Source: Halosimplex halophilum
Lineage (GTDB): Archaea > Halobacteriota > Halobacteria > Halobacteriales > Haloarculaceae
Length of the DNA: 64,000 nucleotides
Direction: 5' to 3'
Assembly: GCF_004698125.1 (NCBI RefSeq)
Contig: NZ_ML214298.1
Span: 310,001-374,000, forward strand
The notes beneath the pieces are model-generated. The model did no database searches. It was given only the letters and a program-made list of their open reading frames with translations, and had not been told where the DNA came from. This document shows positions 28,889 through 48,387 of the stretch, one piece after another. The translations under genes were made by a program, and so were the position numbers. Position 1 is the first letter of the stretch. Every line of letters begins with the position of its first letter.

Positions 28889-29932
28889 ATGCAGCGAGCC
28901 TTCCGCGTCGGTGAGACTTATCGGGACACGGGAAGCTTCAGGAACGCGGAAGACCAGTTTCTGCGGTGGATCCGCGGTCCGCTGAGTAGCGGGATCAGAA
29001 ACACAGGCGGAATCCGTGACCTTGGTGCAAATCGCTCGGAGATACCCGCAGCCCTCTTCCTCATCTCGAACGATGCCGGAATCTCCCAGCACGACGATCC
29101 CTGGGAGGACACGCTTGCGGTCAACGCTGGTTACGTGAGCTACTGGGGCGATGCGAAAAAGGATCTCCGGTATGACGAGTCGGCACAGAATCGGAAAATC
29201 AAGGATGCGTTCGACAGGGCAGCCTCGGGACGACGTGAGGAGGTGCCTCCCGTGCTGGTGTTCCGAAAACCCGAGAGCGGTGTCGTCGAGTTCTGTGGGC
29301 TCTGTGTTCCCGACCACCTAGAGGTGCGTGCCTATCAGGACCATTCAGGAGAACAGATACCGAACTACCATTTTCACTTTTCTATCCTCAACACACAGGC
29401 GGTCCCGGTCTCGTGGCTCCACAGGCGTGCGCAGGCGAACGATGACGACCAGGCGCCCGAAGTCTGGAAGCAGTGGGTCAGGGAAGGAAAGGTCTCCCAG
29501 TGGCCGACTGGCGAACTCCTCGATACGGAAGGAGAGATTCGACGCTACGAAACGACCGAGACGACGGTGAGTGAAGCATTCCGGGAAAAGACGTTTGAAC
29601 GGTACGGGCATGCCTGCGCGATGACCGGTATTCGTGAGGGGGCGCTACTCGATCTGGCACACATCCTGCCGCGGAGCCAGCATCCCGATCTCGCAGAGCA
29701 CGCGGAGAACGTACTCGTACTGAACTCACTCCATCACCGGGCGTTCGATGCCGCGCTGTTCACAGTCGATAGTGAGTATCGGATTCGGACGAGCCCATCG
29801 TTCGAGCCTGCACATCCCTTCCTTCGCGAGACGATCGTCGAACGGGAGGGCAACCAGCTTTCGTTCCCCACTAACGCTCAGATACACCCGGAGTTCTTGG
29901 AAGAATTGAACGCTGGGTTGTCGTGGATGTAG
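28889..29932 (+). CDS. HNH endonuclease with SRA-like N-terminal domain (putative type IV restriction enzyme)
   Basis: 347 residues from ATG 28889. The C-terminal third is an HNH nuclease: CAMTGIREGALLDLAHILPR with the HNH histidine, then NVLVLNSLHHRAFDAALF. The N-terminal two thirds (WIRGPLSSGIRNTGGIRD, DPWEDTLAVNAGYVSYWGDA, PPVLVFRKPESGVVEFCGL) resemble the SRA/PUA-like modified-base readers of ScoMcrA- and AspBHI-type enzymes; this part is recognised by pattern only. Such proteins cut DNA with 5-methylcytosine or phosphorothioate. It stands on the opposite strand inside the DISARM block. A modification-dependent nuclease living beside two cytosine methylases must avoid the host's own marks, so its specificity must differ. 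Confidence 0.75.
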   Translation: MQRAFRVGETYRDTGSFRNAEDQFLRWIRGPLSSGIRNTGGIRDLGANRSEIPAALFLISNDAGISQHDDPWEDTLAVNAGYVSYWGDAKKDLRYDESAQNRKIKDAFDRAASGRREEVPPVLVFRKPESGVVEFCGLCVPDHLEVRAYQDHSGEQIPNYHFHFSILNTQAVPVSWLHRRAQANDDDQAPEVWKQWVREGKVSQWPTGELLDTEGEIRRYETTETTVSEAFREKTFERYGHACAMTGIREGALLDLAHILPRSQHPDLAEHAENVLVLNSLHHRAFDAALFTVDSEYRIRTSPSFEPAHPFLRETIVEREGNQLSFPTNAQIHPEFLEELNAGLSWM

Positions 29933-31110: not shown

Positions 31111-34100
31111 TTACTCCTCTTTAACAGCTTCCTCTACAATCTCGATCTCCTCCTCAGTCAAGTCGTAGAGGTCGTAAACGATCTCGTCGATGAGCTGATC
31201 CGTCCTCTCGATCTTCTCATCGAGTTCGTCAGCGCGTTCCTTCGTCTCGATGTAGCGCCGGAGATCGTCAGCCACGTCGTCGGGGTCGGGCAGGGTCATC
31301 GCCTTCAGACGGTCGATCAGGGAGATATTTTTCGTAGCGTTGTCATGGAAGTCGCCGATTTCTTCCTCGACGGCGACAGGGACGAATTCCTCGACGAGTG
31401 TGGCCTCCTCGTCGGCCAAGTCTGTGAGCGTGAACGCTTCGTAGAACTCCGTCTCTGTGTAGCCGTAGGTATCGGTCTCGAACTCGTCCTCGTCTTCGGG
31501 CTTGTAGCGTGCCGTCGCCTCGATAGTGACTGCTTGGCCGTCCCGCTTCGTGCGGGCGCGTTCGATCTGGAGTTTCTCGTAGTTTTCTATAGTCTCATTG
31601 AGGATATTTGAACCTGTAGGCTGGAAGAGACCGATGTCGGGGAGACTGGGGCCTCCGCAGTAGTTGCCAAGGTAGTCGAGTAGATCGAGATTGAGATTAG
31701 CCAACTCCTCTCTCAGGTCGGTTGCTTTAGATACAAGTTCCCCAAGTTCGTCGTTCCCAGATATATTGTAAGGTATTGGAACGTCTTCTACGTGTGTGGC
31801 ACGGAATTCTTGATACCCGCCCCGTAGCCCAGACAGTTCTGCTTGAATCCAAAAATGAATTAAATCCGAGTTGAGTATTCCTAAGAGAGGAAGGTTTTCT
31901 CCGGAAATTGCATACAATTTATCATTTATATAGTGGCCGTCTCGGTCATACGCAAAATTGGGCCCTTTCGATATTACAGGGTAGACTATCTTTGGCTCGG
32001 AAAACACATTATAATAATCACAGGGCCGGAGTTCCCACCAGAAATCCCCACGATCATAACGTTCTTGCGCATCGTCTCGGAATTGAATAAGATGCTCCGC
32101 TAGTTTAGGAAACTCTGATTTAAACCACTTCCACGCTTCTTCCTCGTTTTGAGCGCCGGAATGTTTTCTTGTCCACCCAGAGGGTATACGGATCAGATAT
32201 CTATTTTCATAGCTAATCTGATACCGATGCACGTCTTTCCCCCGCAACAAAGGCTTGATATGTTCTCCTTCATACCCCACTTGCTCTTTCTCTTCCTTTG
32301 ATAGAATAAATGCATCATTCAGACCGGTCAAAATTCCTCTGTACAGGGGATCCTGCAAATAATCAACCAATGGCCTGGACAGCTCCTCCAATTTAAGTAG
32401 AACTTTTCGGACTTCGTTCGACTGGAGGTTCCACGACTCCTCGTCCAGCGATGACTGGGGTATTTCGTAAGAATGGCTCTTAATCTCAGAGCGGAGAGTT
32501 GTAAAATCTAGATCTTCCAGCACTGCTATATCTATTTTCTGGCTTTCACTTGGCGTTACGCCCTCTGCCAGCATTATCAAAGGATATGCGCTCACTTCGC
32601 TTGAGAAAACTGGCAAAGAGTGGAAGTCAATTAACTTCTCGATACGGTTCTCCTTCGAAAGAATCTCTCTGATTTTCTGGCCATAGTCTGCGTGCACGAA
32701 CTTGTTTGAGACAATATATCCTAGTCTACCACCATCTCGAAGAATTAAGTGTCCGATTTCAAGAAAGTACACATAAAGATCTGCAGCGCTGTCGTAACCC
32801 TCGTACGAGAGTGAAAGGAAATCCTTGGATCTTGATAATTGTTCTTGGCGCACATACGGAGGATTCCCAATTATCGCATCGAATCCAGCATCCGCCTTCC
32901 GCTCCCCATCCTGATTGTAAAACGCCATCGGGAACTCAAGTTCCCAGTGGAAGAAGCGCTCCTCCTCAGCCATAGCCTGCGCGCTCTTGAACCAGTCTTG
33001 TTCCTTAATGTTCTCCCACGCGTCACTGTGGAGCGCTCTAGCCATCCGCTCGTCAGCGTCGTCAGGTATATCGAGCCCAAATGTGCCGGCAGTGTGGACG
33101 TTAGCCATCGCGAGGAGCTTCTGATAGAGAGGGTCGTCACGTACCTCGTCGTAGACCGCCTCCATCTCCTTTGCGTCCTCCAGAGTCTCATTGTCGATAT
33201 CGAGCAGGTCTTGGAAGCGGTCGGTGACGTGCTCCATTGCGCGCTTTCGCGTGTGGTCGAGCGACTCCTGGAGTGTTAGCTGGCCGTCCTCTGTGGTTTC
33301 GTCATCGCCGTTGGACAGCACATCCTCAATGTCGCTTCCGACCAGTGAGTTGCCTGTTTTGAGGTGGTGGTCGAGGAATGCGAGCGGTTGCTCTGCCGCG
33401 AGCGTCCGTAGCCAGAGAGAGACCTTGGCCAGCTCGGTCGCGAGCGGATTGACGTCGACACCGTAGATACAGCGCTGGGCAACCTTCCGGCGCGCCCAGT
33501 TGATGTCCCGTAGCTCCCCCTCCTCCGTCCTCGGGGAACGGACATCTTCGCCCTCGGTGTCGAGCGCCTGTCGGTCCTGGCGTTCCTGGGCGTCGATGAT
33601 CTCGCGGGCAAGATAGTCGACAGCATTGACCGGGAAATGGCCGCTTCCCATTGCCGGATCTAGTACAGTGAGGTCGAAAATTCGCTCGGCGAACTCTTCG
33701 GCGAACCCGCCCTCACGGCTGTGAGTTGTGTCCGCCCCCTGTGACATGAGATCCTGCCGGATCTCCTCCACGAGTGGCCCGAGCGTCTCGTCGACGATGT
33801 ATTCGACGACGTACTCGGGGGTGTAGTACGACCCCGTCGCCTTTCGCTCTCCGTCGTCAGTGCGGAGATAGACCTCTCCCGTCTCGACGGTAACTGTGTC
33901 GTCGTCACCAGCAGCGACGTACTCACCGTCATCAATGGCCAGGGGTTCGTCAGCGACGGACAGTTTATACTCGAGCAGCCCTTCGTAGATAGAGCCGAGA
34001 TTCCGCTCGTCTAGCGAGGAGTAGTCAACGAAGACCTTGCCATCGCCCTCCGAGGCCTCGTGTCGCGTGAGGAGTTCGATGACCTCCGCGATATAGGCGT

Positions 34101-35271
34101 CGCCAACCTCGTACTCCGAGAGGAACTGTGATTCGACGCTGTCGTCCTCGTCCGGATCCGTGCGGAAGAGCCCCCCGTTGTACGCGGGAATGTAGAGGTC
34201 CTGCTTCGGGATGCCCTGCCCCTGGCTCCCCTGGTCGATGAGGACGAACAGTTCCTCGAGCCGGTCCCAGAGATCCGTCTGCCACGACTGGTACTCCTGC
34301 TGGGTCTTGCTCCGGTTCTCGACAACGATCTGTTTGAGCTCGTTCAGGCTGTAGCTCGCGCTGTAGATCTCGTTGTCCGTTGGAAGGAGGTTCCGACCTT
34401 CACTCTCGGCGTAGAGCACGAAGATGAGCCGGTAGAGATAGATGAGCGAACTGTCGTGAATCAGGTCGAGGTCCGCTTCGTCCAAGTCCTCGTTGGTATC
34501 GAGAAACCCCTCTGCGAGGACGCGAATTGCCTCGTAGATATTCTCCTGCAGGTCCTCACCGAGTTCCTCGGCAAAAACGCTCGATTCGTCATACACGTCG
34601 TCGAGGAAGCAGTCACCCGACTGGTCCGGGAGGAACGCGTCCTGCCGGAAGAAGAGGTAGAACTCCTTGAACGCCTCAAGGTCTCCATTCTCGTCGACGA
34701 TGTCGAGGAGCTTCGGGAGGTCGATCTCGTAGAAAGAGTCCAGACGGTGGCTCGTCGGCCCGTAGTACAGTCGCCACTTCTCTCCGTTCGTAAGGACTGC
34801 CCACTGGGCCGGGGTTTCCTGGAGATAGCGGTGGATCTGGTAGCTCGGATTTTCGAAGTCGCGCTTTTCCTCACCCCGGGTGTCGAGCTTTCGACCCCAT
34901 CGTTTCGCGTCCGCGACTGCGATGGCCTCCTCATAGAAGTTTTCACGGTCGAACGCGGTATCGGCGGCCTCCTCGCCCGGGAAGAACCCGTAGTCCGGCC
35001 GCCGAGCATTGCGCATGACCGTCTCCTCGATCTCGAAGGAGATGTCGAGGATCTCGAAAATCGGACGGATGAGGTTTCGCTCAAGCTGGGCCTCGTTGTA
35101 GTCCTCGACACGATCGCGTTTTTCGTCGAGGAGGTCGCTGATCTCCTCGAAGGCCGCTTCTACCTCCGCGTCAGGAACCTCGTTCCAGGGTTCGGTTTCA
35201 CGGAGATGATCGTTGAGGTAATGGTTCGAGAACAGGTCACGGTTAGTCCGGTAGATGGTTGCGTCTGTCAT
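31111..35271 (-). CDS. drmMI: DrmMI-like DNA adenine methyltransferase with N-terminal nuclease-like domain
   Basis: 1,386 residues from ATG 35271. Residues 80-130 hold RRPDYGFFPG and AVADAKRWGRKL, a PD...DxK pattern like the type I/IIG restriction nuclease core. SAM motif I is DPAMGSGHFPVNAVDYL near 540, and the N6-adenine motif IIGNPPYVRQEQ lies near 800. From there to about residue 1220 is the target-recognition region, and the tail is a long coiled helix (RLKAMTLPDPDDVADDLRRY). Class 1 DISARM is defined by an adenine methylase of this kind. Between about 31,600 and 32,870 the gene is strikingly AT-rich while both flanks are GC-rich, as if the recognition domain had been swapped. BREX PglX is the nearest alternative, but no pglZ or brxC is present. 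Confidence 0.83.
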   Translation of the reverse strand: MTDATIYRTNRDLFSNHYLNDHLRETEPWNEVPDAEVEAAFEEISDLLDEKRDRVEDYNEAQLERNLIRPIFEILDISFEIEETVMRNARRPDYGFFPGEEAADTAFDRENFYEEAIAVADAKRWGRKLDTRGEEKRDFENPSYQIHRYLQETPAQWAVLTNGEKWRLYYGPTSHRLDSFYEIDLPKLLDIVDENGDLEAFKEFYLFFRQDAFLPDQSGDCFLDDVYDESSVFAEELGEDLQENIYEAIRVLAEGFLDTNEDLDEADLDLIHDSSLIYLYRLIFVLYAESEGRNLLPTDNEIYSASYSLNELKQIVVENRSKTQQEYQSWQTDLWDRLEELFVLIDQGSQGQGIPKQDLYIPAYNGGLFRTDPDEDDSVESQFLSEYEVGDAYIAEVIELLTRHEASEGDGKVFVDYSSLDERNLGSIYEGLLEYKLSVADEPLAIDDGEYVAAGDDDTVTVETGEVYLRTDDGERKATGSYYTPEYVVEYIVDETLGPLVEEIRQDLMSQGADTTHSREGGFAEEFAERIFDLTVLDPAMGSGHFPVNAVDYLAREIIDAQERQDRQALDTEGEDVRSPRTEEGELRDINWARRKVAQRCIYGVDVNPLATELAKVSLWLRTLAAEQPLAFLDHHLKTGNSLVGSDIEDVLSNGDDETTEDGQLTLQESLDHTRKRAMEHVTDRFQDLLDIDNETLEDAKEMEAVYDEVRDDPLYQKLLAMANVHTAGTFGLDIPDDADERMARALHSDAWENIKEQDWFKSAQAMAEEERFFHWELEFPMAFYNQDGERKADAGFDAIIGNPPYVRQEQLSRSKDFLSLSYEGYDSAADLYVYFLEIGHLILRDGGRLGYIVSNKFVHADYGQKIREILSKENRIEKLIDFHSLPVFSSEVSAYPLIMLAEGVTPSESQKIDIAVLEDLDFTTLRSEIKSHSYEIPQSSLDEESWNLQSNEVRKVLLKLEELSRPLVDYLQDPLYRGILTGLNDAFILSKEEKEQVGYEGEHIKPLLRGKDVHRYQISYENRYLIRIPSGWTRKHSGAQNEEEAWKWFKSEFPKLAEHLIQFRDDAQERYDRGDFWWELRPCDYYNVFSEPKIVYPVISKGPNFAYDRDGHYINDKLYAISGENLPLLGILNSDLIHFWIQAELSGLRGGYQEFRATHVEDVPIPYNISGNDELGELVSKATDLREELANLNLDLLDYLGNYCGGPSLPDIGLFQPTGSNILNETIENYEKLQIERARTKRDGQAVTIEATARYKPEDEDEFETDTYGYTETEFYEAFTLTDLADEEATLVEEFVPVAVEEEIGDFHDNATKNISLIDRLKAMTLPDPDDVADDLRRYIETKERADELDEKIERTDQLIDEIVYDLYDLTEEEIEIVEEAVKEE

Positions 35272-35434: not shown

Positions 35435-36364
35435 TCACAGAGAGACTGAAACCGCACCCTCTGAGTCAAGCAAGAACCTGCAGAGATCGCGGTAGGGAGC
35501 CACTTTCGCGCCCTCCAGTAAGACGCCCAGTTCGAGGTACCGGTCGAAGCCGTAGTCAGTGACGTTGGCGCTTCCGACGTATGCTGCATCCGAATCAAAC
35601 AGCATCACTTTTGCGTGAAGAGTGAACCGAGGATTCGATCCGTTCTGCGTCCGCTCATCGACTGGCACGGTCTCATCCCAGACCGTGTAATCGACGAGTG
35701 AAACTTCTGCGGAGACACCGCGCTCAACAGCACGGTCGACGAACGACTTGATCACACTGTGGTTGTGTGAGTCCGTGTCTGTGAGGTACCGTGTCACAAT
35801 CGTCAGGTCGACTCCTCGTTCGAGAGCATCGAGCAGGACATCCGCGAGCCGACCGAATCCCTCGCCCTCGAAGAACGGGGAAAGCAGAACGATCTCACTC
35901 TCACAGCGTTTCACCTGGCTTGCGAGCGTCGAGAGCAGGCCGTCCATCCCGAACGAGGCTGCGGTCGCATCATTGAATGCTGGATCGTCGGGAAACGTGA
36001 CCAGCGGCGTCACCGTCGTGGTGGGCACACGGTCGCGGTGAGCAGCTACTATCTTGATCGCCTCACGGGTCCGGTCAAAGATCTCCCGCGTCTGAGTGCC
36101 GTGGACAGTAAAGCGCGCCTCCACGAGTCCAGTATCATAGCTTTCTCGCTGGACGGCGCCACATTCGTGGAGCTGCCGAAACAGGTCAGTCGCGGATTCA
36201 CGGCTCAGATGTGTATCCCGTGCCACCGCAGCAGGAGATAGCCATTGCGATCGACCAGCGGCAAGGAGAAGCAGACCTTCCAGTTCGTCGATGAGGTCTT
36301 CTTCCTGGTCGACGATGTCCGCGATTGCGAGCAGTCGGTCAGTCGTCGATCGGTGTTCAGCCAT
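35435..36364 (-). CDS. drmC: DrmC, phospholipase D-fold DISARM protein
   Basis: 309 residues from ATG 36364. The first 75 residues resemble a helix-turn-helix (SPAAVARDTHLSRESATDLF). The C-terminal part is one PLD half-domain with the HxK motif FTLHAKVMLFDSDAAYVGSANVTDYG shortened here to LHAKVMLFD near residue 250, followed by GSAN. IVLLSPFFEGEGF forms the core strand. DrmC is a PLD-family member of DISARM and is dispensable in some systems. It lies 30 bp behind drmB in the same transcript. A single HxK site means it would act as a dimer. Confidence 0.83.
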   Translation of the reverse strand: MAEHRSTTDRLLAIADIVDQEEDLIDELEGLLLLAAGRSQWLSPAAVARDTHLSRESATDLFRQLHECGAVQRESYDTGLVEARFTVHGTQTREIFDRTREAIKIVAAHRDRVPTTTVTPLVTFPDDPAFNDATAASFGMDGLLSTLASQVKRCESEIVLLSPFFEGEGFGRLADVLLDALERGVDLTIVTRYLTDTDSHNHSVIKSFVDRAVERGVSAEVSLVDYTVWDETVPVDERTQNGSNPRFTLHAKVMLFDSDAAYVGSANVTDYGFDRYLELGVLLEGAKVAPYRDLCRFLLDSEGAVSVSL

Positions 36365-36394: not shown

Positions 36395-38356
36395 TTACAG
36401 TCGCCAGAAGCCCTCGATAGACCGGTCAGTGTTTGGCCGACTGCCGAACAGGTAGTCCCGACAGAGGACCTGGTTGAAGTACGAACAGCTGATCTCGCTC
36501 ACGTGAAGGCAGGACAGACAGGCCCCATCGCGCTGTGAGCACACCGGGTCCATCATGCACTCGTTCCCGTGTGCTTTCGCCTGCCCGAGGAGATCGTCAA
36601 GCTGCTGTTCGACCATGGTAGTCATCCCACCGATGTTGAACTCCTCGCGGTTGTTGGTGTAGATTACCAGCGAGAGGGCACGCGGGAAGAGGAACTCGCT
36701 CAGGTTCGTCCGGTCGAATCCACTGATGGTGCTTGCCTGCTTCAGGAGGATGTGCGAGAGCGTGTGCAGCATCTCGAAGACGTACTTCGTCACCTGCCCC
36801 TCGACGGTGTCGTCGGTGGTGGTGTCGAACCGACCATACTGGTCGACGGGGTCGAGGTGATTCAGCAGGAACGCCCACTGTTCGCCCTCTGAGAGATCTT
36901 CGATAGCGGCCCGGGCCCGCTCGATATCGGCCTCTCCCGGATTCTCCGGGATCTCGGGAAGCGTGATACTCCCCCGAACTGCATCTTCGTTGCTGGTTCC
37001 CGGAATGTTGACGGCGAGCCAGAGCAACACCGCGGCCGGGTCGAGGTCGAACTGCGTCGCCTCGGTTTCCGAGGTATCGACGAAGATCGGAGTCCCGTCG
37101 CCACTGCTTGCGTTCTGTGAGAAAGCGTTCAGCCGGGCCTCATCCTCCTCACGCCCCCCTCGCGTGTAACCGTAGACGAACGTCTGGACCGGGAAGTCCT
37201 CGATGACGCGAACGTCTCTGAACCCGAGACGCTCGAGGTCATCGAAGTAGGTCGAAATCTTGTCAGCCTTCTGTGGGAACCCCTCGGCACGAGCGTCTTT
37301 TTCCAGTTCGTCGATCGTGTGGGCGGTGAGTTCCTCGAGGCTGAGCACATACTGGAGGAGTTCGTCGCCAGCGTCGGTCATCTCTGTAGCGTTCTCGCCA
37401 GCGTTCAGGTCGATCAGGTCTCTGATGACTTCACCGATAGTCTGGCTGTCGATTTCGCCATGCTCGCGGAGCCACTCTTCAGCCTCGGCCAGTGACTCGA
37501 CCTCGGGTTCGCTCTGGTAGATCTCGATCTTCCGGTCGTCATCGATTTCGGCCCCCTCGATCCCCTCATTCATATCGACGGCTTGGAGCGGGGAGTCGGT
37601 GAGTCCGAGATGTTTGGCGAGTGCTTTCCGGGACCCGTCCTCGCTCCCGCGGAGGTGTCCAATTCCGGAAGTGTGTAGATTTACCGTCGTCAGGTAATGC
37701 GGGTAGTACGTCGAGCCGGCACGGTGGACCGTGGTGTACATACTGTCGTCGTCTGGGTTGTCCTCATAGGCCGGCGGAACGTAGTCACAGCCACAGCTCT
37801 GGTAGTAGCTCACCCGGGTATTCCATCCACAGATCTTACAGCGCCATTTGAAGTTCTGTGCACGCTGGCTGTCCTGCGTATCGAGAACGATGTGCTGATC
37901 GCCGTGCTCAGGACACTTCTGTGTGTAGAGTCGCCTGATTTCACCGCAGCTGTGGACGCTGGCGAACTGATACTGCTTCAGATCGCCGTTGCAGCCCGAG
38001 CGCTGGCACTTCAGTGCCTGGTTTTTTCCGCTGAGGTCATCCGCGGAGTAGTACTCGTGGGCCTTCTGGCAGCTGCTGCAATAGAAGGTGGTTGGGAAGG
38101 GGCGGGCGCGCACCTCCTTGGGGGCAGCGAAGTCGTAATGGCTGGGTTTGTTTGACGTGAAGCCCTGTTCACCACCATCCCAGTTCTTCGCCCGAGCGAA
38201 CACGCGGTCGACGATGTATTCCCGGTCGACCTGGCCGCTTGCGTCAGTTGTTTCGAGGCGGTTCACCTGCCAGATGCCGCGCTTGTCGCTGTAATCGAAC
38301 GTGTTCCCGGGAAGGAACTGATACAGGATCTGCTGACGGCTACGTTCCATGCTCAT
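36395..38356 (-). CDS. drmB: DrmB, DUF1998 DISARM protein
   Basis: 653 residues from ATG 38356 (an ATG at 38350 is also possible). Several cysteine groups in the first 220 residues (FYCSSCQKAHEY, CQRSGC, CGEI, CKICGW, YYQSCGCDY) form zinc fingers. The C-terminal 130 residues are the DUF1998 domain: FEMLHTLSHILLKQAS, FPRALSLVIYTNN, EEFNIGGMTTMVEQ, and the cysteine set CMMDPVCS, CLSCLHV and CSYFNQVLCRDYL. DrmA and DrmB form the core DISARM complex that loads on DNA ends and blocks phage DNA. Its start is 6 bp after the drmA stop, so translation is coupled. Confidence 0.9.
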   Translation of the reverse strand: MSMERSRQQILYQFLPGNTFDYSDKRGIWQVNRLETTDASGQVDREYIVDRVFARAKNWDGGEQGFTSNKPSHYDFAAPKEVRARPFPTTFYCSSCQKAHEYYSADDLSGKNQALKCQRSGCNGDLKQYQFASVHSCGEIRRLYTQKCPEHGDQHIVLDTQDSQRAQNFKWRCKICGWNTRVSYYQSCGCDYVPPAYEDNPDDDSMYTTVHRAGSTYYPHYLTTVNLHTSGIGHLRGSEDGSRKALAKHLGLTDSPLQAVDMNEGIEGAEIDDDRKIEIYQSEPEVESLAEAEEWLREHGEIDSQTIGEVIRDLIDLNAGENATEMTDAGDELLQYVLSLEELTAHTIDELEKDARAEGFPQKADKISTYFDDLERLGFRDVRVIEDFPVQTFVYGYTRGGREEDEARLNAFSQNASSGDGTPIFVDTSETEATQFDLDPAAVLLWLAVNIPGTSNEDAVRGSITLPEIPENPGEADIERARAAIEDLSEGEQWAFLLNHLDPVDQYGRFDTTTDDTVEGQVTKYVFEMLHTLSHILLKQASTISGFDRTNLSEFLFPRALSLVIYTNNREEFNIGGMTTMVEQQLDDLLGQAKAHGNECMMDPVCSQRDGACLSCLHVSEISCSYFNQVLCRDYLFGSRPNTDRSIEGFWRL

Positions 38357-38362
38357 TGTTGA

Positions 38363-41300
38363 TCACCGGTTGTCCATCGTCTCGAAGATCTCTCGGTAAC
38401 GGTACTCAGATCGGATCGGGAGCTGCTCATCGACGTCCCGCAAGCTCTGCATCGGCGAACGCTTGATCCGCTCGCTTGTCCACTGATCGTCGTCGAGGCG
38501 GAGCTGCGAGAGTGCTTCTTTCGTGAGGGCTTCGATGTCGCCCCGGAACTCCTCGTGGTCGTCTGGATTGCCGAACATTCTCAGCATCTGCTGGCGTAGT
38601 TCTCCCTCGTCGACAGAGTCGGCGAACTCCTCGGCGTTGTCTCCGAAGTAGAGGTTCCCGGCGCCTTCGCGGTACATGTAGTGGTTCAGGAGAAGCCCCA
38701 TGAATAGCCCTGGATGGGTCTGTTTGACGCTGTTTTTCGCCCAGCGGTTGATCGGGACCGGCTCCACCAGTCGGTCGAGGAATGCATGGTACTTCTCGAA
38801 GAAGTGGTAGTGACTCAGGTCGCGTTCCCGGATGGGATGTGCTACGTTGAACACGAGGCCAGGGCGCGACCGACCTGCCCGGGAACTCGCCTGGATGTAT
38901 TCAGCGGTCCCGCGGGGCATTCCGAAGAACGTCATCATGTTGAACCGGTCGACGTCGACCCCATGTGCGATCATGTTCGTCGCCGTGATGGTGTTGAGCC
39001 GACTCGCCAGCAGCCAGGCGAGCGCCTCACGCGTGTCCTCGCTTGCTCGGGCGCGCTCGACATCAAACTGATCGCTGTCGACGACCTCGTTCTCCTCGTC
39101 GAGACTGTTCTCGAGTGTGCTTCGGAGTGAGAGAACGGAATCTGTTACCTCCTCTTCGAGCACCCCTCGATCAATCAGCCGGTTGAGGATCTGTTTGTCA
39201 GCCTCCTCGTCCCAGGGGTCCTCCACAATATCCAGCACTTCCATGATTGTCTCGAAGCCGGTCCCTCCGGTCATCCGCTCGGAGGCCAGCGGGGGTCGCC
39301 CATCTTCCTGGAGGTAGGCGTCGAGCTGTGAGACGATGGACTGGTCCAGCCGGTCGCCGTCTTTCTTCGACAGTAGATAGGTGATACTGGTACTGTAGTA
39401 GCTGAGCAGCGCCAGCACCTCGTCGATCGAGTCAGCTTCGAGCGGAGCCGTCGTGTCTGTTCCTTCGAGTGCAGCACCTGTTAGCACCTGAGTCGGCTCG
39501 TTCAGGGACTTGCGGAACAGGTTCTGGATCTCCCGATGGTAGTAGAACAGGAGATCGATGATGGAGTTGATGTGGGTCTTCCCGTGGGGGACCAGCCCGA
39601 TGTAGTAGCGCTGGGTCTCTGCGCGCTCCTGTGCGTAGAAGTTCTCGCGCAGATAGGGGCCCGGGGAGGGGAAGCGCTCAGCCGGCCGCATGAACAGGTT
39701 ATGCACCTGATCTTCGAATCCGGTGATCGTCGCCGTCGGAGCGATGACCTTCGTTTTCCCGGCCTCGACGAGCTCCTGCAACTCGGCAACTCCCGTCTCG
39801 TAGTGACCGTCGAAGCTCCCCATGCTCTCTTCGAGCAGGTGGAGTTCGTCTGGAACCATCAGCGATGGCGCAGGGTCGTAGGGCTCGACCGGACGCGCCA
39901 TATCCGAGAAATCGTCTTTATCGATCGGGCAGCCGTATTTCTCGGTGCATTCACCGAGACTGGCGAACCCATGGATCGGACACTCGAGGTCCATCTCGCC
40001 CGTGATGAGGTGGGCGAACTTGCGCTGGTAGCCGACAGCGGTGATCTTGTCGATCGTCCCGGCAATGATCGTCGGCGCGTACCGGTAGAGCTCGTTGTCG
40101 ACGACGTGGACCGGGAGTTCCTCCTCCGCGTAGGTCTCGCTGGAGTCAAGCGAGCGCGACTGCCACGGGCATTCGAAGCTACTGCCTGTACAGCAGTGCG
40201 TTAGCCGATGGTCGTCCTCGGTGATCCGGACCTCAATATCCGCACCGCAGGCCGGGCAGTTGGGAACGACCTTTGCCTCACGGCGGAGACTCTCTCCAGA
40301 TGGGCCCTGGTACCGCTGGTGGTTGTTATTGTCATACCCGGTGAGGGCGTTCGGCGTGTTTCCCTTGCCGACGAGGTAGCCCATGGAAAATGGACGGGAC
40401 GGATGGGTCCCGATATCCGACTGTTCGCGGCGGACGAGGTCGGCATACATCACCGTCTCTGTCATCCGCTGGAATTGCTGGAGCGAGAGGAGCCGAAGCG
40501 GGAACTTTGTCCAGGCCGTAACCCCGAAGTTCTTCCCGCGAAGCCGGTCGAAGAACATGCTCCAGACTGCGACACCGAGGAACGCCTCGGTCTTGCCACC
40601 GCCTGTCGGGAACCAGAGCACATCGACGACATCGAGGGGAGAATCAGCGCCCTCGGCTCGATCTTCAGTCGATCCATCGCGCCAGCTGACCTCCGACCAC
40701 TCCTCGTACTCTCGGCTCGCAACGTCGGGGACTTCCATGACGATGAACACGAGCTGGAAAAGGCGCCAGCCTGGGAACTCGTGCATCCTATCCATCGCCT
40801 CGTTCATCAACTCGAACGCGCGTCCGACTGTCTCGGGGTGCTGACGGAGACATTCGATCCCGCGCTCGAAGCGCTTGATCTCGCGCTCGAACGCGTCGCG
40901 ATCGTCGTTAAAGTCGGCGAGATCGCCAGTTTTGGGGTCGTCATCCCAGTCTTCGCGCTCTCGATACTGTTCGAGCGCGGCATCGTACTCCTCGCGGAGG
41001 TACTGCCGCATCTCGGCAGCAATGTCGTCGAGGGTATCGAGGCCACCGTCTTCTAGATCCGCAAGCACCTCGAACGTCGCGTCGACATTTCGATCTGCGG
41101 ATTCGTAGACGAGCTGGCGGTACTGTGGGATGAACTGCGTCTCCAGCCGATTGGCCGTCGGTGCTGCAGCAGGTGCACGGCGGCCCGGCGGGACACCGTT
41201 TTCATCCACCTGCTGATCGTTGCGCTCGGGTGCAGTCACCGTACAGTTGCGCCCATGGCCCCAGAGGTCACGGTTATACCGGAAGTCCTCGGGAAGTGGG

Positions 41301-42190
41301 TCGAAAGTGAAGGGGACGAACTCGAGATCGCCTGTCGTCTCCAGTTCGAGTCCCACCTCGAACAGAGTTGGGTCGCGAATTGTGTAGATAGCGTCGTCAC
41401 GCGACTGTATTGCCTCGTTCGCGACTTCAAGATCAACGATGGTACTGTCGTCATCGTTTTCCTGGTCAGCCATCACTTCGACGGTCAGGGTGGCGTGCCA
41501 GTCGGGGAGTACCGGATCCCCCTCGGCAGCGCGTTCAGCCAGGTAACCACGGAAGCTCTCTTTGTCCTCCAGGGCAGCCGTCGGGACTTTGTCGTCACCC
41601 TCCGTCTCGGCGTAGAGGTCGTAGTTCTCCTGGGCGTGCTCGCGCGCGTCAGCGAAGGCTGTCTGGAACGCATCGCGGGCACGTTCTTGGACGACATCCG
41701 GGGTGGTCCGACTCGGTGTCTTGAGGACCTGCGCCGGGATCTCGATCGGGGGGATGTCGAGCTCGATCCGCTCGAAGACCGGGAGCAGGGTATCGCCCTC
41801 GTCATCCTCGTCGCGGTCACCCAGTGCGACGAAGGAATCCCGGTTCACCATCTCGTCGTACGTGGGGTTGACGCGCACCCATACGCTCGCGTTGACCGAG
41901 AGGACCAGCGCGTCGTCGTCGTCGGTGCCTCCCCGGACGCGGACGGTGGCACCGAGGCCGGTCGGCTCCATCTTCGACTGCAGGTCGTCATCCGGGTCGT
42001 CAAGTTGCTCTTCGCTTTCAGGCGCCAGCGCGCCCGCGAAGAACCGCTCGCTAGGGAAGTCCCGCTGGACCCGCCTGTCAATGTCGCCACGGGCCTGTTT
42101 CAGCACCGTCTCGCGGAGGTGCCGGGCGATGCGTTCGTCGTCGGCCGGGGTTTCAGTCCCGGTGGTATTTCCTGTGGACATCCTGCTCAC
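38363..42190 (-). CDS. drmA: DrmA, DISARM SF2 helicase
   Basis: 1,275 residues from GTG 42190, which overlaps the stop of the preceding gene by four bases (GTGA); ATG at 42181 is the alternative. The helicase core shows VDVLWFPTGGGKTEAFLGV near residue 530, a DEAH-like box LMVPDELHLLEES near 780, PTATITGF, and motif VI QASSRAGRSRPGLVF near 1107. Zinc-like pairs (CPACGADIEV, CPIDKDD) interrupt the lobes as in other DrmA proteins. The long N-terminal part (MIT-like helices and beta stretches) is typical of DrmA. With DrmB it forms the DNA-binding core that is opened when unmodified foreign DNA is met. Confidence 0.9.
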   Translation of the reverse strand: MSRMSTGNTTGTETPADDERIARHLRETVLKQARGDIDRRVQRDFPSERFFAGALAPESEEQLDDPDDDLQSKMEPTGLGATVRVRGGTDDDDALVLSVNASVWVRVNPTYDEMVNRDSFVALGDRDEDDEGDTLLPVFERIELDIPPIEIPAQVLKTPSRTTPDVVQERARDAFQTAFADAREHAQENYDLYAETEGDDKVPTAALEDKESFRGYLAERAAEGDPVLPDWHATLTVEVMADQENDDDSTIVDLEVANEAIQSRDDAIYTIRDPTLFEVGLELETTGDLEFVPFTFDPLPEDFRYNRDLWGHGRNCTVTAPERNDQQVDENGVPPGRRAPAAAPTANRLETQFIPQYRQLVYESADRNVDATFEVLADLEDGGLDTLDDIAAEMRQYLREEYDAALEQYREREDWDDDPKTGDLADFNDDRDAFEREIKRFERGIECLRQHPETVGRAFELMNEAMDRMHEFPGWRLFQLVFIVMEVPDVASREYEEWSEVSWRDGSTEDRAEGADSPLDVVDVLWFPTGGGKTEAFLGVAVWSMFFDRLRGKNFGVTAWTKFPLRLLSLQQFQRMTETVMYADLVRREQSDIGTHPSRPFSMGYLVGKGNTPNALTGYDNNNHQRYQGPSGESLRREAKVVPNCPACGADIEVRITEDDHRLTHCCTGSSFECPWQSRSLDSSETYAEEELPVHVVDNELYRYAPTIIAGTIDKITAVGYQRKFAHLITGEMDLECPIHGFASLGECTEKYGCPIDKDDFSDMARPVEPYDPAPSLMVPDELHLLEESMGSFDGHYETGVAELQELVEAGKTKVIAPTATITGFEDQVHNLFMRPAERFPSPGPYLRENFYAQERAETQRYYIGLVPHGKTHINSIIDLLFYYHREIQNLFRKSLNEPTQVLTGAALEGTDTTAPLEADSIDEVLALLSYYSTSITYLLSKKDGDRLDQSIVSQLDAYLQEDGRPPLASERMTGGTGFETIMEVLDIVEDPWDEEADKQILNRLIDRGVLEEEVTDSVLSLRSTLENSLDEENEVVDSDQFDVERARASEDTREALAWLLASRLNTITATNMIAHGVDVDRFNMMTFFGMPRGTAEYIQASSRAGRSRPGLVFNVAHPIRERDLSHYHFFEKYHAFLDRLVEPVPINRWAKNSVKQTHPGLFMGLLLNHYMYREGAGNLYFGDNAEEFADSVDEGELRQQMLRMFGNPDDHEEFRGDIEALTKEALSQLRLDDDQWTSERIKRSPMQSLRDVDEQLPIRSEYRYREIFETMDNR

Positions 42191-44913
42191 TCTGTAATTC
42201 GGTCGAGCTGATCGTCCGGGATGATGGTCGGCATGATCGTGGGGGCGAGGGCGTTGATGCTGCGAGCTACAACCTCGGCTGTGATAAGGCCCGTGTCCTC
42301 GAAACTCGTGCCGTACTCATCGACGTAGTCGCGGTACATGGTGATGGTGTAGAACACCATCGCGAGTTCGTAGTGCTGTTCGACGAACTCTTTCCAGTTG
42401 TCCTTGACGTTGCGCTCGACGATGAACGACCGGAGCGCAGCGGCGTCCATGTTGATCGTAAGCGAGAGGCCACTGATGGTTCCGTCCTGACTCGGATCGA
42501 GGTGGATCAGCGTGTGTTCGTCGAAGTGCCTCGCATCGGCTACATTGAACTTCTCAGGGTCGACCGGGTCACTGTCATCGTCGGTTCGCCAGTTCTCCTC
42601 GTGAACGTACCCGATGTCGGGCATCTCGAAGCCCCAGTCGTCGGTCCCGCCGTCGTCGCCTGTGTCTCCATCACGGTCGCTCGCGCTGGCTTCGTCGTCA
42701 CCAGACGCATCGGCGGTATCAGTGTCGCCGTCGCTCTCGTTCCCGGTTGAAGAATGGCTGTCTGTCCCCTCCACGTATTCGAGCTGGCAGCGTGCGGTGA
42801 GCGTGCCGGTATCGACATCCACGCCACCATCGGTTGCGAGGTCAGTCTCTGCGTGTCCCGGATAGGCGTCGGCTGGATCGTCGATCTCCGGACAATCGCG
42901 TGGGTCCGGACGGGTCAGATCGACCGAGAGCGTTGTTTCGTCCCCCGGGTCGGCGTCGTCAGCAGGGTCGATGGTCAGCGTGAGTAGACCGTTCTGGAGC
43001 TCGACCGCGCGTAGCTGGTCCGGGCTAGAGACTTCCAGCGAGCCGGAGAGAACGTCCCGGGCGAGGTAGTCGCTCTGGGCATCGGTTGCAAACCGAATCG
43101 TCGTCGCCCCGCTGACGGGTATTTCGACGGGCAGAGGCTCGTCATCGTCCCAGAGGACGTGCTCCTCACTCCCGGGGTTGTACTCTTCGATCGGTGTGAG
43201 AAACGTCGGGAGCTTCGGTGCGTGGGGCCTGTCGCTTCCGCTCTCGTCACCAGCCGAGGTATCCGTGTGGTCGGAGAGATCGCCGTCGGCGGACTCTGGT
43301 GGGGACTCGCTCCCATTGCCACTCGGGCGGATGCGCGGTGCGCGGATCCGCTCACCAGTGGCCATGAAGTTACCGACCTCCGGGTTCCGCTCGATGAACT
43401 CGGCGAACGTTTCGGTGTCGGTCGCCGGTTCGGCGTTTCCACGCTGCGCTCGTCGGCGTTCCTCTTCCGCGGTAAGCAGGTCGCTTCCCTCGAGAGCGTC
43501 CTCCAGCGCACTGAGGAACTTGTTGGCCTGCGGTGAATCCTCCAGTGTATCTCGGGACGGGCTGAACATGCTCACCATCCCGAGGTTCGCGAGGTCGTCG
43601 AACTCCGCGATGACAACGGTGTCAGAGGCGATCTTCGAGTACCCCAGCGACTTCAGGAAGTACTCTCCCTTGCTTGCATGGGTCTGGCCGTTGATGGTAA
43701 GCATCACGGCGTGGTCCTTCTGGACCCCCGTGCGTCCATGAGCGTCCTTGTGTGCCGAGGTACCGGAGACAAATTTTTGCTTCTCACTGGCCTCCTCGAG
43801 TTCGTCGTCGTCCTTGAACAGCAACACGGTGATGTCGCGCTCGCCCAACGTCTCCGAGCCCGTGTCGACGGTGAGGTGCTCTTTGTCCACGAGGAGATGC
43901 TCGTTGCCATCCTCCAGTTCTTGGCGGAACCCCCGCGTGTAGCTCTGCGGGAACTTCGAGTTGTACCGGAGATCGGTCAGCTGGATGGGGTACGGCGAGT
44001 CGACGACCGATCGCTCAAGCTTGTGGCGGAATCCCTCGTCGCCACTGATCATCGTTCGCGAGGCGTTCGTCTGGTAGTCGTACACCTTGACGAAAGCGCC
44101 GTGGCTCTGGGGATCTGGCGTCGTCGTGTTCTTCTCGAAGTCGTACTTCTCAGGGTAGCTTTCACGGAACTTCTCCGTGAGAGCCCCTCCGAACGTCCCG
44201 TCGAAGATGGGGAACTCGCCGTTCACCGTAAGGTATTCCACCTGACTCTTGTGCGGCTTGTCGTGAATCAGCGTCCACGACCACTCGCCCGGCTCGTGGA
44301 CGGAGGCACTGGCGATGAACTTGAACGCCCGCTCGTTGTACTCCTCCTCGACGTTCCCAGCGAACTTCATCACGGCTGTGCTCCCCATGCCGTACTGTCC
44401 CTGCAGGAAGTCGTACTCCTGCTTCTTTAGCCCGGGTGCGTGTAGCCCGACGAAGTCGTCGAATTCCGGGCGAGACTTCCCCTTTCCGTTGTCACGGACC
44501 GTGAGGTTGAGCAGGTTCCCCTCTTGGGGCGCATAGCCGTCGGCGATGATCTCGAGTTCTGCATCGTCGAGGTCGACCCAGCCCGACTGTGCGGCCTTCT
44601 TCATCGAGGAAGCAGTCGGATCGTCACCGACCGCGCAAGCCTCCTCGTAGAAGCGAAGGGTGAGCGAGTCCTCCGCATTCAGTGGCAGCTCCGAGAACGC
44701 CGCCATCGGAGAACTCGCCTGCGTGTAGACATCGGAGTAGTTGTTCTCGTCCTCACCAAGGGGCACCCAGTTCATTTCGTGTGCCCCCAGCTTGAGGAGA
44801 GTCTCTTCCAGCTCAGCGAGAATCTCCCAGACCTCGTCTGGGCTATCTGCGGTGAGTAGCCGTTCAGCGTACCTCTTGGAAGTGGCCCCAGACAGGCGTG
44901 CAGGCTGGCTCAT
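42187..44913 (-). CDS. MORC-like GHKL ATPase at the head of the DISARM operon
   Basis: 908 residues from ATG 44913 (MSQPARLSG); the open frame continues upstream through a hairpin but that part is basic and unlike haloarchaeal protein. The ATP-binding Bergerat fold is clear: LTVRDNGKGKSRPEFDDF gives the DxGxG box near residue 140, and GQYGMGSTAVMKFAG the glycine-rich lid near 172. A middle domain carries the S5-like part (AVMLTINGQTHASKGEYFL). Then come about 200 residues of acidic linker and a C-terminal helical domain. GHKL ATPases with SF2 helicases and DUF1998 partners were described as prokaryotic MORC relatives in restriction systems. Its stop overlaps the drmA start, so it belongs to the system. 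It is not among the standard DISARM genes. Confidence 0.85.
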   Translation of the reverse strand: MSQPARLSGATSKRYAERLLTADSPDEVWEILAELEETLLKLGAHEMNWVPLGEDENNYSDVYTQASSPMAAFSELPLNAEDSLTLRFYEEACAVGDDPTASSMKKAAQSGWVDLDDAELEIIADGYAPQEGNLLNLTVRDNGKGKSRPEFDDFVGLHAPGLKKQEYDFLQGQYGMGSTAVMKFAGNVEEEYNERAFKFIASASVHEPGEWSWTLIHDKPHKSQVEYLTVNGEFPIFDGTFGGALTEKFRESYPEKYDFEKNTTTPDPQSHGAFVKVYDYQTNASRTMISGDEGFRHKLERSVVDSPYPIQLTDLRYNSKFPQSYTRGFRQELEDGNEHLLVDKEHLTVDTGSETLGERDITVLLFKDDDELEEASEKQKFVSGTSAHKDAHGRTGVQKDHAVMLTINGQTHASKGEYFLKSLGYSKIASDTVVIAEFDDLANLGMVSMFSPSRDTLEDSPQANKFLSALEDALEGSDLLTAEEERRRAQRGNAEPATDTETFAEFIERNPEVGNFMATGERIRAPRIRPSGNGSESPPESADGDLSDHTDTSAGDESGSDRPHAPKLPTFLTPIEEYNPGSEEHVLWDDDEPLPVEIPVSGATTIRFATDAQSDYLARDVLSGSLEVSSPDQLRAVELQNGLLTLTIDPADDADPGDETTLSVDLTRPDPRDCPEIDDPADAYPGHAETDLATDGGVDVDTGTLTARCQLEYVEGTDSHSSTGNESDGDTDTADASGDDEASASDRDGDTGDDGGTDDWGFEMPDIGYVHEENWRTDDDSDPVDPEKFNVADARHFDEHTLIHLDPSQDGTISGLSLTINMDAAALRSFIVERNVKDNWKEFVEQHYELAMVFYTITMYRDYVDEYGTSFEDTGLITAEVVARSINALAPTIMPTIIPDDQLDRITE

Positions 44914-45060: not shown

Positions 45061-45088
45061 TAGTAGCATAACGCGCTCGCGGGCGCCC

Positions 45089-45194: not shown

Positions 45195-45983
45195 CTATAC
45201 CGAGGAATACGTACATCCGCTATTGAGTGGACACTCCTCACAGATAGGGTGCGCGTGTGTACAGCGAAGCGCGCCAAGATCGAGGAGTGCGAGATTGAAT
45301 GCTCGTGCCATGGCTCCGTCAGCAGGAACAAGGGAGTCGAGGAATCGGTAGACGACCTCGCTCTTGTGGGGTTGATCTGGTAGTGGATATTCGAACACCC
45401 GCCCCGTAATGCGTGCAGTATTCGCATCAACGAGTGCGAGCGGTTCCTGGAACGCAAAGAGCATGCATGCCCGGGCGGTGTAGGGCCCAACTCGCCACGG
45501 TTGCTGTAGTGCCTCCAAGTCAGTCGGGACTGCTCCATCATGATTGACAACGCAAAGTTCCGCAGCTTCCTGAATCGAACGGACACGGTGATTGACGAAT
45601 CCAAGGGATCTGATACACTCTCGAAGCTCTGTTTCGCTCTTTTCGAGGACTGCTCCTGGTCGCGAAAAAGTTGAGAAAAACTCCTCATAGATCTCCTCCA
45701 CCGCATCGGCACGGGTTCGCTGTAGCAGTATCTCGGTCGCGTAAATCCGCCAGGGATCCGTCGCATACCGCCATGGATACTCTCGTCCATAGGTCTCGAG
45801 CCAGCTGAGGAGTTGAGGTAATGTCGTCAGAAACTCATCGACCTTCTCGCCGGCCGAGTCAACGCCGACCTCCTGAAGCACGTCAAGTGCGGCGTGTTCG
45901 TCTACGTGGTCCCGAAGTTCTTCGGAAGTAACCTGAGTCCGTCCGAATGGGAACAGGGGATCGACCATCGGGTTCGAAATCAC
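45195..45983 (-). CDS. mig: Mig-type G/T mismatch (thymine) DNA glycosylase
   Basis: 262 residues from ATG 45983 (a second ATG 15 bases downstream is possible). An HhH-GPD glycosylase with an iron-sulphur cluster: YPWRYATDPWRIYATEILLQ, helix-hairpin-helix WRVGPYTARACMLF, and CTHAHPICEECPLNSGC with the Cx6Cx2Cx5C cluster pattern. Tyr168 stands where endonuclease III has its catalytic lysine, and Asp186 in LVDANTARI is 18 residues further on, exactly the Tyr/Asp spacing of Mig from Methanothermobacter. Mig removes thymine from G/T pairs left by deamination of 5-methylcytosine and is encoded beside a C5 methylase there too. MutY is the main alternative. Confidence 0.8.
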   Translation of the reverse strand: MISNPMVDPLFPFGRTQVTSEELRDHVDEHAALDVLQEVGVDSAGEKVDEFLTTLPQLLSWLETYGREYPWRYATDPWRIYATEILLQRTRADAVEEIYEEFFSTFSRPGAVLEKSETELRECIRSLGFVNHRVRSIQEAAELCVVNHDGAVPTDLEALQQPWRVGPYTARACMLFAFQEPLALVDANTARITGRVFEYPLPDQPHKSEVVYRFLDSLVPADGAMARAFNLALLDLGALRCTHAHPICEECPLNSGCTYSSV

Positions 45984-46143: not shown

Positions 46144-48387
46144 ATGCCTGACCCGGTCACGTCTTCCGATCTACCACTGGGCCTAATTCGTTCAGCGTCG
46201 AATACGGAGCGGAATATCCATCGAAAGTTGCTCTTCGAGAATGTTGATTTTCTCATTGATACACTGACTGCTGCCCATTCGCGGAGACAACGAATAACGC
46301 CGGTCGGATGTCCAGGTGCAACGCCGGAACAGATCGCACGAAAACGGAGTACGCAGGAAGCAAACTGCCGTTACGCACTGATCAACCGCGAATATACTGT
46401 CGACAGTGACTCTCCATGCCCATGCAATGATCCCCTCTGTGGGAGTGACGACCCGCTTGATGGGGTAGCTGCAGCTGTACTCAGTGGGGCCGTCGAATAT
46501 CCAGCGAGACGATTCTTCGAGCGATATCCTCGAGAAATTGTCCAGGCGCTGCGAGATCAACACGGGAGCTGGGAAGAGATCGCCTCGATGGATCAGGAGC
46601 AACTCGCTGATTCTCTTAAGGAGATGACCCGTGGCAGGGGCAAAGGACGGACGCGTGCCGCTCGGCTCCAAGATCTTCTTGAAGTTGTTGGGGAAACACA
46701 CTACACAGATGGGGTTACGCTTCGAGATTTCTCCCGAGTGAAGTATCAGACCTATGTAGATTTCCTTGCTACTCTACCAGGAATTCAGGAGGGTGACGGC
46801 TGGTGGTTGCTCCAGACGGCTTTCGACAAGCCGGTATGGCCCGCAGACCCCAAGATCGACGAGTTGCTCTGTTCACTCGGCCTCATCAAACCAGCCGATC
46901 TTCACGATGATGCTGGTCGCCGGCATGACCTTGAGAATGAACTGATAGACCGGCTTATTGCCCCCCTGTTCCGAGCACTTGCAACACATGCCGTCGCTGC
47001 CAAGACAGATGTCTGCGGTGAAGATTGTGAGATCAAAAAATTCCTACTAACCCATCGACTTCGACAACAGCAGGGAGAACCGACAGGACCGACAGCAGTG
47101 GACGTGTTTGCAGGTGCTGGTGGACTCTCATGCGGGCTAGAAGAGGCAGGATATAACGTCCAGTGGGCAATCGATATCGACTCTGACGCGGTAGCTACCT
47201 ACCGATTGAATCATCCAGGAATCCCCCACGAAAATGTCGTCTGTGAGGATGTCCGTGAAATCGAGCTTGCTAAACGGATTCAGGAAGCCGCCGGTGAACC
47301 CGACTTGCTCGTCGGGGGACCACCATGTCAGTCCCTTTCGAAGGCAGGGTATCGATCACGCCGATCGAACGACGATGAATATAGCATCCTCGACGATGAC
47401 CGGACGAACCTCTATACCCAGTATGTGAACGCCGTTGATGAGCTTCGCCCGAAAGCCATTGTAATGGAGAACGTTGAGGGCATGGTCAACGAGGTAGGAG
47501 ATACTGATATACGCGTAATTGACTGGGTGCTCGAAGATCTTGAATTACTCAGTGAAACGGGGCCCGGGTACGATGTTGAGTATCGGTTACAGGACATGAC
47601 AGAACTCGGTATCCCACAAAAACGGGAACGAGTCCTTCTGATCGGAATCCGAGAGGATCTTGTAGAGGGTTCATCGACTGCTGAAGAGGTGCTTACCGAC
47701 CTTCCAGTAGCAGACAATTCGCGGACCATCCAACAGGGACTGTCTGGGCTCCTTCGCCTTCGACGTGGAGCAGGAGGGCGAGTACTGACGAAGTCAGTTA
47801 GGGGGCAAAAGAGCGACTACGTCTACGAACACGATCTCGATTCAGACACCGATCTCTGCTTCAACCACAAAGCACGGGAACACCCGATGGAGAAAGATCG
47901 GATCCTGTTTGACGAGGCGCTGAGCCCTGGTGATACTGGCTGGGATGTCAAATACGATTCCGATGGAGAATATGCAGAATATGTCGAATACGATGTCGGA
48001 ACCGCTGATAACCAGCGATTTGGTGACAAGTACCGGATGCTTGAATGGTCAGAGCCCTCGCCGACGATTGTGGCCCATCTGGCCAAAGACGCGAACGGCT
48101 ACGTGCTACCCGATTATTATGAGCACGCCCGACCCGATCCTGCCCGCGCCGACCCGGAGCGAAACCGGGGAATTACCCCGCGGGAGGCTGCCAGGTTACA
48201 GTCGTTCCCTGATGACTACATCTTCCTCGGAACGTTCACGAGCTGGTTTAGACAGATCGGCAACGCGGTCCCTCCCGTTGCAGGAAAACAGATCGGGAAG
48301 ACGCTTAACGCTGTAGTTGATGCTGTAGAATCACCGGTGATGGAAGCGGATTCCGCCGGTGCCGATGAAGCCGTTTCCGATGACTGA
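46144..48387 (+). CDS. DNA (cytosine-5) methyltransferase fused to N-terminal HhH-GPD-like domain
   Basis: 747 residues from ATG 46144, divergent from the glycosylase gene with 160 bp between. Residues 320-740 are a complete C5 methylase: VDVFAGAGGLSCGLEEAG, GGPPCQSLSKAGY with the catalytic Cys near 395, ENVEG, RERVLLIG and RQIGNAVPP. Residues about 115-300 look like an HhH-GPD glycosylase: FFERYPREIVQALRDQHG, GKGRTRAARLQDLLEVVG, FLATLPGIQEGDGWWLL, and PVWPADPKIDELL with Asp235 at the site of the catalytic aspartate. The lysine or tyrosine expected before it is absent, and only one cysteine pair (CGEDC) recalls the iron-sulphur cluster. It may read or flip target bases rather than cut. A short Cys group (CPCNDPLC) lies near 98. 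Confidence 0.85.
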   Translation: MPDPVTSSDLPLGLIRSASNTERNIHRKLLFENVDFLIDTLTAAHSRRQRITPVGCPGATPEQIARKRSTQEANCRYALINREYTVDSDSPCPCNDPLCGSDDPLDGVAAAVLSGAVEYPARRFFERYPREIVQALRDQHGSWEEIASMDQEQLADSLKEMTRGRGKGRTRAARLQDLLEVVGETHYTDGVTLRDFSRVKYQTYVDFLATLPGIQEGDGWWLLQTAFDKPVWPADPKIDELLCSLGLIKPADLHDDAGRRHDLENELIDRLIAPLFRALATHAVAAKTDVCGEDCEIKKFLLTHRLRQQQGEPTGPTAVDVFAGAGGLSCGLEEAGYNVQWAIDIDSDAVATYRLNHPGIPHENVVCEDVREIELAKRIQEAAGEPDLLVGGPPCQSLSKAGYRSRRSNDDEYSILDDDRTNLYTQYVNAVDELRPKAIVMENVEGMVNEVGDTDIRVIDWVLEDLELLSETGPGYDVEYRLQDMTELGIPQKRERVLLIGIREDLVEGSSTAEEVLTDLPVADNSRTIQQGLSGLLRLRRGAGGRVLTKSVRGQKSDYVYEHDLDSDTDLCFNHKAREHPMEKDRILFDEALSPGDTGWDVKYDSDGEYAEYVEYDVGTADNQRFGDKYRMLEWSEPSPTIVAHLAKDANGYVLPDYYEHARPDPARADPERNRGITPREAARLQSFPDDYIFLGTFTSWFRQIGNAVPPVAGKQIGKTLNAVVDAVESPVMEADSAGADEAVSDD

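Follow-up and report, generated by a model that had tools for sequence, protein, structure and literature searches.

Directly upstream of drmA, in an island of DISARM genes in Halosimplex halophilum, lies a gene encoding a GHKL ATPase which, judged from the sequences, is a selected but dispensable add-on of one haloarchaeal class I DISARM lineage. Among the relatives of this ATPase the common denominator appears to be DNA modification, not DISARM.

The ATPase gene and its DISARM island

We analyzed a stretch of 64,000 nucleotides, here called the window, which carries the following genes in the region of interest.

23823 to 25199, minus strand: C5 cytosine methyltransferase a, 458 amino acids (Pfam DNA_methylase E 4.9e-62; same-place homologue in locus L054)
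25247 to 28189, minus strand: SNF2 helicase, DrmD/BrxHII-like, 980 amino acids (PADLOC BrxHII E 8.8e-171, DrmD E 1.8e-112)
28889 to 29932, plus strand: AspBHI-N plus HNH endonuclease, predicted to be methyl-directed, between drmMI and drmD (Pfam RE_AspBHI_N E 1.7e-37; PADLOC mREase_II E 1e-23)
31111 to 35271, minus strand: drmMI, PglX-like adenine methyltransferase (Eco57I), 1386 amino acids (PADLOC DrmMI E 1.9e-112; Pfam Eco57I E 1.2e-38)
35435 to 36364, minus strand: drmC, PLD-fold nuclease, 309 amino acids (PADLOC DrmC E 5.5e-14; Pfam PLDc_2 E 7.6e-13)
36395 to 38356, minus strand: drmB (MZB/DUF1998), 653 amino acids (PADLOC DrmB E 1.7e-51; Pfam MZB E 0.0011, under cutoff)
38363 to 42190, minus strand: drmA-type helicase of the YprA family, 1275 amino acids as called (PADLOC DrmA E 5.5e-162; NCBIfam DrmA 401 bits, under the cutoff of 950)
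42187 to 44913, minus strand: GHKL (Bergerat) plus S5 ATPase, followed by an Ig-like domain and a C terminus made of helices, 908 amino acids (Bergerat motifs, model)
45195 to 45983, minus strand: MutY/EndoIII-like glycosylase, 262 amino acids, between the ATPase and C5 methyltransferase b (Pfam HhH-GPD E 6.9e-17; NCBIfam mutY E 1.1e-38, under cutoff)
46144 to 48387, plus strand: C5 cytosine methyltransferase b, divergent, 747 amino acids (Pfam E 3.2e-57)

The ATPase gene and drmA head a minus-strand run in which drmB follows after 6 nt, drmC after 30 nt, and the PglX-like methyltransferase gene after 163 nt. PADLOC matched all five genes of the DISARM class I set (drmA, drmB, drmC, drmMI, and drmD) in this one island, so that the locus is class I DISARM by content, though a divergent one, as its DrmA, DrmB, and DrmC score far under the NCBIfam cutoffs. 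The AspBHI-type HNH gene (28889-29932) is on the strand opposite to the drm genes and shares the island with the genes for two C5 methyltransferases; a GmrSD-type restriction protein (21446-23437) is encoded there too. The pair formed by the MutY-like gene and the divergent C5 methyltransferase gene can also be found in ATPase-free DISARM loci (L044, L045, L149, and L150), which suggests that the glycosylase is a mismatch-repair companion of C5 methyltransferase b.

The ATPase gene is real. Its longest open reading frame begins at 45069, and homologues favor the start at 44913 used here. As called, drmA begins with a GTG at 42190 that shares the letters GTGA with the ATPase stop, and the four-base overlap claimed in the earlier note is literally there. 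The relatives, however, support another start. In all eight intact loci an ATG lies 2 to 5 nt past the ATPase stop (in the window at 42181, 5 nt past it), and the overlapping in-frame GTG is present in only three of the eight (window, L028, and L029). The ATG at 42181 is therefore the more likely drmA start on sequence comparison, and the two genes are tightly coupled but probably not overlapping.

Occurrence with DISARM in haloarchaea

In a collection of 391 haloarchaeal genomes we found the ATPase family in 15 and DrmA in 53, with two candidates scored per genome, so that weak paralogues may be missed. Close copies, with at least 61% identity, are present in seven genomes (that of the window and six others), and all seven adjoin drmA; the recurrence beside drmA that the earlier note looked for is thus borne out. 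An eighth genome with a DrmA of at least 80% (G285) has a 35-residue remnant of the ATPase C terminus before drmA. These eight genomes together with G313, plasmid pCBA1220-03, and a DL31 plasmid (remnant) make up a set of 11 loci, with eight intact ATPases, one frameshifted (L033, a decay or possibly a sequencing error), and two remnants; in the last three loci drmA is otherwise intact. The intact ATPase genes are directly upstream of drmA in loci from at least five families. Three of the 11 loci are on plasmids, which points to mobility.

In the DrmA tree, from which the duplicates L060, L061, L063, and L066 had been dropped, all 11 loci fall in one clade (support 100/98), next to relatives that have this operon but no ATPase. 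We take this to mean a single gain of the ATPase in the DISARM lineage, probably followed by three decays (one frameshift and two deletions), and the single gain supports the earlier proposal that the ATPase was added to a preexisting DISARM core. Purifying selection acts on the intact copies, with a dN/dS of 0.11 to 0.25 in six comparisons with the window copy; for DrmA the values were 0.045 to 0.058. With eight intact loci in at least five families and such dN/dS values, the pairing of ATPase and drmA is not due to chance.

The two remnants stem from independent deletions, after which the last 35 to 52 residues are still encoded in a short open frame just ahead of drmA (L059, 11974-12159; L147, about 10541-10645). 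These frames may reflect chance, coupling, or a docking peptide.

Motifs and predicted fold of the ATPase

The protein has a DNGKG box at residues 141 to 145 and a QGQYGMGS box at residues 171 to 178. The Bergerat motifs of the GHKL superfamily (E..N..D, DxGxG, a GxxxMG-type lid, and GT..K) are present in 63 to 64 of 64 relatives, with conservation of E75/N79/D82, D141-G143-G145, Q171-G172..M176-G177, G272, and K276. We take E75 and N79 to be catalytic residues, with the roles they have in GHKL ATPases. The AlphaFold2 model (mean pLDDT 79.5) shows a GHKL and S5 module with an Ig-like domain behind it and helices at the end; model and PDB matches put the Bergerat fold and S5 transducer at residues about 54 to 490. 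Motifs and model together confirm the Bergerat-fold GHKL ATPase of the earlier note. Searches with the single sequence gave no match in PADLOC, NCBIfam, or the PDB and only an HATPase_c_3 match under cutoff in Pfam (E 0.013), and a profile search of PDB sequences returned a chance match only.

Foldseek placed TopoVI-B, GyrB, TRAP1, MORC2, and MORC3 together as matches, a MORC2-DNA structure included. VIA-align gave its highest Z to Hsp90 (Z 20.0, rmsd 4.6, 308 aligned), ahead of MORC3 (Z 17.3, rmsd 4.1, 300 aligned), MutL (Z 15.2, rmsd 4.4, 287 aligned), and TopoVI-B (Z 15.2, rmsd 4.5, 315 aligned). The modeled fold thus gives the class, GHKL plus S5, and does not discriminate between subfamilies. 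The earlier note had held that a structural match to an Hsp90-type chaperone would speak against its reading; such a match does lead in VIA-align, whereas in Foldseek TopoVI-B, GyrB, TRAP1, and MORC2 rank together.

For a C-terminal model of 343 residues the top matches were Ig-like folds covering residues 1 to 155 only, and no nuclease was among the matches listed for this well-covered part. Pfam found no nuclease domain in 37 family members, whereas paraMORC3 and Shedu I-D proteins end in a PD-(D/E)xK nuclease, and it found neither a STAS nor an HTH domain in the ATPase. An Ig-like C-terminal part and the lack of a Pfam nuclease fit a partner-dependent effector.

The S5 domain of MORC proteins has the signature motif GhXhhpXXRhl (PMC2292703, available in part). 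This motif was found in none of the 64 relatives, the likely equivalent site being an invariant G-Q within NGQ. Pfam Morc6_S5 matched none of 37 members, and in a scan of 11 genomes the same model was silent throughout, in the controls as well. The ExxxH of the C-terminal S5 of paraMORC2 was not found either, as H412, the only near-invariant histidine in the S5 region, has N, not E, four residues earlier. The MORC membership implied in the earlier note is not supported: by the published S5 signature the ATPase appears not to be a MORC, nor is it a proven Hsp90. The same note mentioned a prediction that MORC-related GHKL ATPases work with SF2 helicases and DUF1998 proteins; PMC2292703 does name SF2 helicases, but neither "DUF1998" nor "DUF" occurs in the part of its text available.

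DNA modification genes beside the wider family

A scan of GTDB gave 386 relatives of the ATPase, and the 80 best were taken further; viral contigs held no close relative and six distant ones. After removal of DISARM-linked loci (L063 and L066; L061, also DISARM-linked, never entered) and same-genome duplicates (L062, L064, L065, and L069), we classified 88 loci, 75 from bacteria or viral contigs and 13 from archaea outside DISARM. The 75 derive from the best 80 of the 386 and the six viral contigs and are not a random sample; at least two of sspB, sspC, and sspD are present in 44, one in a single locus, a queried methyltransferase gene within 5 kb in six more, and neither in 24. Of the 13 archaeal loci, eight have a methyltransferase gene within 5 kb and five have none. 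The 24 and 5 loci with neither include several short contigs, and the queries miss some methyltransferase families.

The bacterial relatives beside sspBCD (within L072 to L146) at times have dndB as well. The Ssp identity of representatives rests on PADLOC SspC, SspD, and SspB and on Pfam DUF4007, PAPS_reduct, and DndB. A binomial yardstick for the association, with 43 of 75 loci entered and one ssp locus per 4.5 Mb assumed, is rough. From these gene contexts the ATPase family is a candidate unrecognized partner of Ssp. No PADLOC v2.0.0 model of any kind matched any of 37 family members at E 0.05.

Among the relatives, one with 45% identity (L035) has both C5 methyltransferase types alongside and no drmABC, and in six loci (L034, L036, L037, L039, L040, and L042) the ATPase is near an N6/N4 methyltransferase. 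A dedicated link to DISARM is not supported by this survey, since most relatives examined sit with Ssp or methyltransferase genes and the gene has decayed in 3 of 11 DISARM loci.

One distant archaeal relative lies within an SNF2-PglX-(REase-like)-OLD-ATPase-YprA operon, just before the YprA helicase. An ARMADA-like helicase is present in 15 of the 391 haloarchaeal genomes, again with two candidates scored per genome. ARMADA is not a regular home of the ATPase, which is beside the helicase in one of the seven loci compared (G050; L038 plus six). In these ARMADA-like SNF2-PglX-YprA operons (L038, L155, and L160 to L165; seven loci compared) the place between PglX and the YprA helicase is a variable cargo slot.

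Possible functions of the ATPase

Closed-dimer GHKL proteins, such as TopoVI-B, MutL, Hsp90, and MORC, use ATP to join two modules around DNA or a client. We tentatively favor, at somewhat under an even chance, the reading that the ATPase is an ATP-gated dimeric GHKL clamp, a modification-coupled accessory restriction factor that entered the locus once, immediately ahead of drmABC. Host DNA would receive its marks from DrmMI and the C5 methyltransferases. Where invader DNA is unmarked or being actively processed, the ATPase would bind ATP, and its N-terminal modules would dimerize and close around the DNA while the helical C terminus keeps the dimer joined. The clamp would then hold or block the DNA and pass it to DrmAB and DrmC for unwinding and cutting. 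The DNA clamping or looping suggested in the earlier note is plausible from the model; we infer the dimerization, the closure on DNA, the sensing of modification, and the contact with DrmA. Since no nuclease was found in the ATPase, it would act either by trapping DNA or by handing it over to a partner, for instance DrmAB/DrmC. DrmAB is held in an autoinhibited state, and methylated DNA lowers its ATPase activity (PMC9142583, in the part available), so that a factor gripping unmarked DNA would suit it well as an accessory. Against an accessory role count the three broken or reduced genes among 11 loci and the absence of the ATPase from the sister clade, which has this operon too, as well as the 24 of 75 and 5 of 13 relatives without Ssp or a queried methyltransferase nearby and an Hsp90 fold match at least as good as that to MORC.

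Nearly as likely as this accessory role is that the ATPase pairs with a DNA methyltransferase in a small restriction-modification-like unit of its own, carried as separate cargo in a variable helicase-side slot of DISARM or ARMADA and acting in parallel to DrmA. Consistent with such cargo, L035 and the six loci with N6/N4 methyltransferases have the ATPase near methyltransferases, and the ARMADA-like slot varies between loci. In the six loci with all three proteins, moreover, ATPase distances follow those of C5 methyltransferase b (Spearman 0.73) more than those of DrmA (0.29), which favors the cargo reading, the pairs being few and nonindependent. C5 methyltransferase b, however, occurs both with and without the ATPase across the window's DISARM lineage, and the 2- to 5-nt spacing before drmA in 8 of 8 intact loci also argues against an independent unit. 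That the gene is a mere passenger being lost, as the 3 of 11 decayed loci would allow, is quite improbable given the dN/dS values and the full active-site conservation among intact copies.

That the ATPase serves the large DISARM proteins as a chaperone of the Hsp90 kind, or helps them to assemble, we consider improbable, if slightly less so than a passenger. Hsp90/TRAP1 chains do lead the VIA-align ranking over MORC3, and an Ig-like domain follows the GHKL and S5 module; yet Foldseek puts TopoVI-B, GyrB, and MORC2 level with TRAP1, the relatives sit with unrelated DNA-modification machines and not with one client, and sister DISARM loci do without the ATPase. Least probable of all is a kinase that regulates the operon, as the S5 transducer is a feature of closed-dimer ATPases and not of histidine kinases, and the protein has no STAS or HTH domain by Pfam. 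In its favor, the ATPase gene heads the tight drm cluster, and there is the precedent of CapK, a GHKL kinase described as controlling immune operons (PMC13373217, available in part).

To return to the clamp, the window-type GHKL ATPase would give DISARM a named accessory open to testing. The larger lead is a broad unnamed ATPase family, missing from PADLOC and common to chemically different self-marking systems. It is conceivable, though we think it rather unlikely, that these ATPases make up an unrecognized class of DNA clamps, general in use and gated by modification, in which one GHKL effector plugs into Ssp, N6/N4 and C5 methylation, ARMADA, and DISARM; paired with just one methyltransferase, it may form a nuclease-free restriction system by DNA entrapment. 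If one effector reads phosphorothioation, 6mA/4mC, and 5mC contexts, this would bear on how modification-based immunity works without a dedicated nuclease and, if true, also on the prokaryotic background to MORC silencing in eukaryotes.

Comparison with known systems

In a literature search confined to open papers and their main texts, we recognized no publication in which a GHKL ATPase is assigned to DISARM or linked to Ssp, and the terms GHKL and MORC are absent from PMC10853773, PMC12839542, and PMC12988326. The nearest published work, each source available in part, concerns MORC and paraMORC proteins in restriction-modification loci (Iyer 2008, PMC2292703), VcSduA (PMC12137116), and HEPN-paraMORC fusions (PMC3710099). 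The MORC and paraMORC proteins of PMC2292703 share with the window ATPase the combination of GHKL and S5 and a place beside helicases, methyltransferases, and nucleases; the window family lacks the MORC S5 signature, and the available text of PMC2292703 notes no link to DISARM or phosphorothioation. VcSduA, a paraMORC3-type GHKL-Shedu nuclease in phage defense, lost protection upon ATPase mutation according to the part of PMC12137116 available, and it has its own DUF4263 nuclease, whereas Pfam finds none in the window ATPase. The SNF2-PglX-YprA operon with the distant relative resembles the archaeal ARMADA type I order as given in the accessible part of a preprint (Bell 2025, PMC12458937), but the window helicase is of the DrmA type. 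SspBCD phosphorothioation systems are the neighbors of 44 of the 75 bacterial and viral-contig relatives; PADLOC and Pfam recognized no ssp gene in the window for the proteins near the ATPase that were scanned. With DISARM class I the window shares homologues of drmMI, drmD, drmA, drmB, and drmC, and to these it adds the GHKL ATPase, two C5 methyltransferases, and the MutY-like gene.
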